Below are positions 31,211-31,812 of a DNA stretch of 60,536 bases, piece by piece. This stretch comes from Pseudomonadota bacterium (GTDB taxonomy: Bacteria; Chloroflexota; UBA5177). Numbering within the stretch: position 1 is the first letter of the stretch; each line of letters begins with the position of its first letter. The notes under the pieces are model-generated. The model ran no database searches and was not told where the DNA came from. It saw only the letters and a list, made by a program, of their open reading frames with translations. The stretch lies in assembly GCA_021324655.1 (NCBI GenBank), contig JAJPIP010000057.1, positions 1 to 60,536 on the forward strand. Reading direction: 5' to 3'. The translations under genes were made by a program, and so were the position numbers.

Positions 31211-31380
31211 TGGCTATGCTACCGCGCACCAGATCGACATAAGTGGGGCGTGGCCGCCAAAATATGTGGATGATCGTGGATAGCGGCCAGATGCGGCGGC
31301 ATGCTAAGCACGAGTCCGAACCGACGGTGGACAAAGCGGCGGCGCTCGCCGGGAGCAGTGGATAAGTCGAAAATTGGGGC

Positions 31381-31409
31381 TTGTCAACCGTGGCTCTCCG
31401 TATTACGAT
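31381..31409 (+). promoter_or_regulatory. Sigma-70-type promoter of a candidate small RNA
   Basis: TTGTCA (31381-31386) and TACGAT (31404-31409) are separated by exactly 17 bases. No gene starts within 400 bases downstream, but a perfect intrinsic terminator follows about 170 bases later. Confidence 0.6.
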
Positions 31410-31415
31410 GACTTT

Positions 31416-31587
31416 GCCGTTCGGTAACGGGCGGCTGTGGGGATAGCCGAGAGGTGAACCCCCGAGAGACTCCAGCGCACGCGACGTCGTCGGGTGACTG
31501 ACGCGACGCTCCTCCAGGCGGGCAACCGAACGAGAGGCAGTTGGAGCAGGTGCAGAGGGACGTGCAAGCGCCTCTCTGCACTTTTTT
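31416..31587 (+). ncRNA. Candidate structured small RNA of about 172 nt
   Basis: The segment lies between a good promoter and a strong terminator and has no protein-like frame. Pairings visible by eye: a long-range stem CGTTCGGT (31418-31425) with ACCGAACG (31525-31532) enclosing the body; a local stem CGGCT (31432-31436) with AGCCG (31445-31449); CTCCA (31512-31516) with TGGAG (31542-31546); and the terminator stem. The first stem competes with a local CCGTT/AACGG hairpin. It lacks the hallmark sequences of SRP RNA, RNase P RNA, tmRNA and the riboswitches I know. 6S RNA fits by size but not by an obvious single long hairpin. Confidence 0.5.
31550..31587 (+). terminator. Intrinsic terminator of the candidate small RNA
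   Basis: GTGCAGAG (31550-31557) pairs with CTCTGCAC (31574-31581), extended by a G-T and a G-C pair, with a twelve-base loop and six T residues (31582-31587). Confidence 0.85.
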
Positions 31588-31604
31588 CTCTCGCGAGACA
31601 GTGA

Positions 31605-31626
31605 GAGCGGGCCTGGCCGCCCGCTC
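31605..31626. repeat. Perfect 8-bp hairpin between the small-RNA candidate and ychF
   Basis: GAGCGGGC (31605-31612) pairs perfectly with GCCCGCTC (31619-31626) over six bases. No T-run follows. The remaining DNA up to the ychF start (31627-31812) has a TTGTCA box near 31753 but no well-spaced -10; I see nothing else in it. Confidence 0.45.
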
Positions 31627-31812
31627 CCACCGGCCGCTCTCCCGTGCAAGCGAGGCGTGGCGGCATAGAGGCCGGCCGGACCCCCGATGACTGGGATCCG
31701 GCCACACCTGCCTTATGGTATCGGCTGGACGGGCCGGTGTATAGGGGGCACTTGTCATAACCCTCGATTTCATCCGGTATCCTGGGACGGATATCGCGCG
31801 GGGGAGACTGGG

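Follow-up and report, generated by a model that had tools for sequence, protein, structure and literature searches.

6S RNA is defined by a rod with a closing stem and a central bubble. Among other described small RNAs (sRNAs) that resemble the one treated here, CcnA of Caulobacter crescentus is the product of an RNA gene in the chromosomal origin that is cell-cycle regulated and presumably activated by CtrA (PMC8959179), and EcpR1 of Sinorhizobium meliloti, which has two stem-loop domains, represses the dnaA and gcrA mRNAs (PMC4414408). A literature search turned up no dedicated sRNA study for the phylum Chloroflexota. Here, we describe an sRNA gene of an uncultured bacterium, on contig JAJPIP010000057.1 of its draft genome (GenBank assembly GCA_021324655.1; GTDB lineage Chloroflexota, UBA5177). 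The window is the whole stretch analysed, namely positions 1 to 60,536 of this contig. Judged from sequence comparison, the locus is very probably a stand-alone, independently transcribed gene for a structured non-coding sRNA. The RNA is a new family of a known kind, the independently transcribed intergenic sRNAs.

In its length, in having its own promoter and in being single copy, this RNA resembles 6S RNA (RF00013) and Ms1 (PMC4191392). It differs from them in its multi-hairpin fold, which has neither the closing stem nor the central bubble, and does not match RF00013. The likeness to CcnA, drawn without sequence comparison, is that of a non-coding RNA gene in a region with DnaA boxes (PMC8959179). 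However, no origin signature is present here, and a phased array lies upstream of a sigma-A type promoter. EcpR1 is also a stand-alone intergenic sRNA linked to replication control (PMC4414408), whereas in our proposal the RNA gene itself is the target of DnaA, and the phylum is a different one.

Relatives, promoter, terminator and fold of the RNA gene

Searches of 61 related genomes with BLAST gave two clear matches, on contig C100 of genome G003 (68 % over 165 bases, E 5e-6) and contig C17 of genome G002 (E 6e-5). Both genomes represent other genera in the same family as G000, the genome of the window. The RNA family was found in three of the seven genomes of the class, with one copy in each. 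A covariance model recovered the three members at 168–194 bits, but these same three were used to build the model and the scores are not independent. No further convincing member was found with this model in 400 Chloroflexota genomes, or with laxer filters in all seven genomes of the class. Contigs of named genomes were also scanned for the pattern, and only the two relatives in hand came up. The 14 other matches from the 400 genomes were not accepted, as those that were aligned or read are bare hairpins or partial; the rest were not inspected singly. Weak matches within the class lack the box array described below. A mobile or phage element was rejected, given the absence of matches to the locus among plasmids, phages and IMG/VR.

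The first-pass annotation had proposed a new small RNA running from its own promoter to its own terminator, and this proposal is supported both by the Rfam searches and by compensatory changes in the relatives. None of the 4227 Rfam families matched at its gathering score (the best scored 17.6 bits where gathering requires 71), and only chance-level matches appeared at a low threshold. The first-pass annotation could not assign the RNA to RNase P or signal recognition particle RNA, and the genome's own copies of these are on other contigs (C88 and C35).

The promoter was present as first described, TTGTCA and TACGAT separated by 17 bases at 31381–31409, and has 9 of 12 matches to the consensus. 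Two sites of this kind occur in 1.4 kb, against 0.1 expected from shuffled sequences. The arrangement TTGTCA-17-TANNNT is kept in all three genomes. The block GTGGATAANTCNNAAATTGGGNCTTGTCA, which ends in the −35 hexamer, is found in single copy in the three genomes and nowhere else among the 61. Other genes of the same family are preceded by similar TTGGGGCTTGAC-type −35 regions, for example GAATTGGGGCTTGACA followed by TATTTT at the usual distance. Because this −35 style is shared by other promoters of the family, the promoter at 31381–31409 is, on its sequence, of the housekeeping, sigma-A type.

The terminator is strong and ends in six T (31582–31587), as had been noted, but the stem originally given as 10 bp is predicted by folding to consist of 12 bp, a 1×1 mismatch and a further 3 bp below the GCAA loop (31548–31583). 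A simple terminator scan passed over this hairpin, since its rule permits neither an internal mismatch nor a long loop. In the three genomes, all terminator cells are paired (100 %), four pairs are changed on both sides, and the U-rich tract is conserved. As the apical GGACGUGCAAGCGC is invariant on a compensated stem, this suggests that the loop itself is recognised.

All three genomes share a fold in which hairpins H1 and H2 are followed by a three-way junction and then by the terminator hairpin; four GNRA loops are conserved in it (Table 1). The second junction arm (31511–31537) is the least supported part. Folding energies are below those of shuffled sequences (z −3.4 for the window, −2.4 and −2.5 for the two homologues). 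Compensatory changes, a test named in the first-pass annotation, were found: 10 of 52 pairs differ on both sides, compared to a mean of 4.2 in shuffled alignments, of which 2 of 500 reached this number. The covariation score was 0.340 against 0.203 in shuffles (1 of 500 as high), and 92 % of cells are paired, against 32–42 % in slid controls. One pair in the H1 stem is C-G, A-U and G-C in the three genomes, provided that the alignment gap is set outside the stem. The consensus folding energy (z −7.6; z −4.6 with the terminator left out) and the structure conservation index (0.78 against 0.49) were equalled by none of 300 column shuffles. Such compensation in the helices suggests that the RNA itself is functional.

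A perfect 8 bp long-range stem (31418–31425 with 31525–31532) had also been proposed. The complementarity exists, but it is not part of the predicted structure (pairing probability 0.0). The energy rises from −83.0 to −69.3 kcal/mol (13.7 worse) when this pairing is imposed, a similar stem arises in 179 of 2000 shuffles (9 %), and the homologues lack the complementarity.

The earlier view that no protein-coding frame is present was borne out. Between the window and the two homologues, translated identity over longer stretches is approximately 29–50 %, below the DNA identity of 67 %, and on neither strand is any frame better conserved than the DNA over such stretches. The indels between the three genomes are not multiples of three and the frames on the + strand are broken by stops.

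Table 1. Features at the sRNA locus (positions in the window)
Feature	Position	Strand	Remarks
Upstream motif GACATAAG	31236–31243	+	ACATAA invariant in the three-genome alignment
Box 1, DnaA-box-like	31266–31273	−	GTGGATGA on +, TCATCCAC on −
Box 2	31276–31283	−	GTGGATAG on +; GGGGAGAA in G002
Box 3	31327–31334	−	GTGGACAA on +; GTGGATAA / GTGGATAG in relatives
Box 4	31358–31365	−	GTGGATAA on +, TTATCCAC on −; identical in three genomes
Extended −35 region AAATTGGGGCTTGTCA	31371–31386	+	one-base variation only across three genomes; −35 TTGTCA at 31381–31386
−10 hexamer TACGAT	31404–31409	+	TAACGT, TAAGGT in relatives; 17 bp spacing in all three
sRNA gene	31416–31587	+	~172 nt; predicted start ~31416, from position of −10
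Hairpin H1	31416–31435	+	predicted in all three genomes; GNRA loop GUAA (G002, GCAA; G003, GUAA)
Hairpin H2	31439–31462	+	GNRA loop GAGA (G002, GCAA; G003, GAAA)
Three-way junction	31470–31546	+	closing helix 31470–31476/31540–31546; arm 31481–31509, GNRA loop GUGA (GUAA in G002 and G003); arm 31511–31537
Intrinsic terminator	31548–31587	+	invariant apical GGACGUGCAAGCGC (GCAA loop); compensated stem; U tract
Further conserved non-coding stretch	31588–31730	+	second GTGCAAGC hairpin 31644–31651; ACCTGCCTTATGGTAT 31706–31721

Conservation reaches approximately 145 bases beyond the terminator, to about 31730, and includes CCGRTRACNGG and ACCTGCCTNATNGTA. This stretch folds only marginally better than shuffles (z −1.0 to −1.9). 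It could represent read-through sequence, another RNA or a set of DNA sites. Its hairpin has the form NGU-GCAA-GCN, like the apex of the terminator. Neither this conservation nor the box array was included in the first-pass annotation.

The gene had been placed between rhtA and ychF. The identification of ychF holds (TIGR00092, above the cut-off), but the other neighbour, a leftward EamA-type transporter gene, has RhtA as its best NCBIfam match at a score below the cut-off (198 against 354 bits). The neighbours are cyclophilin and NUDIX genes in G002, and an AAA-domain gene and a polyketide-cyclase-family gene in G003. As the neighbours differ in all three genomes, we regard this as a stand-alone RNA gene and not a leader of ychF.

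A separate observation, useful for promoter annotation, is that a recurring promoter style in the family (loci L078, L079, L080 and L085) consists of TTGGGGCTTGACA followed approximately 17 bases on by a TATTNT-like −10.

A DnaA-box-like array upstream of the promoter

Four copies of GTGGATAR, which is the reverse complement of the DnaA-box core TTATCCAC, precede the promoter in one direction in all three genomes, and only one of the 12 boxes is degenerate. The start-to-start spacings are 10, 51 and 31 in the window and 10, 53 and 31 in both relatives, or roughly 1, 5 and 3 turns of the helix. Measured upstream from the predicted RNA start, the boxes are approximately 55, 86, 137 and 147 bases away; they lie on one face of the helix, and none overlaps the core promoter. 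On each of the three contigs the best cluster of boxes lies at the RNA locus, and of the matches to the 31 bp box pair only those beside the RNA gene in G002 and G003 are perfect. On the basis of the core matches and the phased spacing in three genomes, we consider DnaA boxes to be present at this promoter.

In G000, the core TTATCCAC is present just after dnaA, which is directly followed by TTATCCACG, TTTTCCACA and TTATCCACC. The boxes beside dnaA in G002 are related to these and have the same spacing. The box core is tied to DnaA in this lineage because it flanks dnaA in this way. The array right after the dnaA stop codon (reverse strand 1567–1644 in L105; 4164–4268 in L106) is followed by a large convergent open frame and is a candidate origin. 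We also note that G000 contains two full-size DnaA-like genes (contigs C68 and C79, loci L039 and L040; open frames of 460 and 553 aa), as do most relatives in the class.

Together, these features suggest the following mechanism. The RNA would be transcribed from the sigma-A type promoter at 31381–31409 and end at the intrinsic terminator near 31587. DnaA, the presumed binder, would occupy the four boxes as an ordered complex and adjust transcription of the RNA. As the core promoter is free of boxes, activation from upstream appears likelier than repression. The level of the RNA would then follow the DnaA or replication state, and the RNA, stabilised by its GNRA-capped hairpins, may act in trans, with mRNAs or a protein as targets. 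We put the chance that DnaA controls the gene at about even, and the whole explanation, a DnaA-regulated and independently transcribed regulatory RNA, is for us equally finely balanced. The narrower version, an sRNA set directly by DnaA via the phased array and possibly with a second structured part at 31588–31730, is put forward tentatively, as a real possibility that falls short of even odds.

Alternative explanations

Several observations weigh against this explanation. None of 200 simulated 60 kb sequences reached four same-strand boxes within 100 bp, but the sequences were simulated under a single composition model and the pattern was chosen with the array already known. The covariation rests on three sequences only. 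In the conservation test, the − strand scored at least as well (z −9.3), as is usual for such tests, and the strand was therefore called from the promoter, the U tract of the terminator and the GNRA loops. The RNA was not detected in G001 and G004, which belong to the same family and are 82 % and 88 % complete, nor in G005 and G006. Finally, G002 carries a degenerate box 2, and the 9-mer DnaA box is not conserved at its first base, the one preceding GTGGAT.

Because of this last point, another protein that binds TTATCCAC is possible. The sRNA gene would then be real, supported by the fold and compensation described earlier, and the boxes would bind a different regulator or be idle, leaving the RNA unconnected to replication. 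However, the 8 bases of the core are identical to those found next to dnaA in this genome, and the spacing of nearly whole helical turns is kept in three genera. We consider this alternative rather unlikely.

The locus could also be a DNA element of replication (oriC, a second origin, or a site that titrates or reactivates DnaA) with an RNA made inside it, as CcnA is made in the Caulobacter origin. The array itself, the conservation over approximately 490 bp (31236–31730), which extends beyond the RNA on both sides, and the presence of two DnaA-like genes would all fit. However, there is no switch in GC skew at the locus in any of the three contigs, a test made weak by their short length, and no marked AT-rich unwinding stretch (around the locus in the window, AT is ≤46 % per 50 bases). 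A separate box array is found next to dnaA, and the compensated helices point to RNA function. An element of this type therefore seems improbable.

A highly diverged 6S RNA or an Ms1-like RNA that binds RNA polymerase is very improbable. The length fits, and a search for RF00013 in G000, which is approximately 96 % complete, found no match. However, no closing stem joins the ends, there is no single rod with a central bubble, and in each of the three genomes the 5′ end folds into a hairpin of its own. A cis-acting leader (riboswitch or attenuator) of ychF can be dismissed almost entirely, as the RNA reads toward ychF in the window but in both G002 and G003 lies on a different contig from ychF; there, the next recognised downstream genes face the RNA.

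Implications

The RNA gene adds a well-supported RNA family that is absent from Rfam. If DnaA does use the array, the gene would be among the rare RNA genes controlled directly by the replication initiator. The RNA would then be a direct output of the replication-initiation clock in a little-studied phylum, and would provide a testable link between replication and gene regulation.
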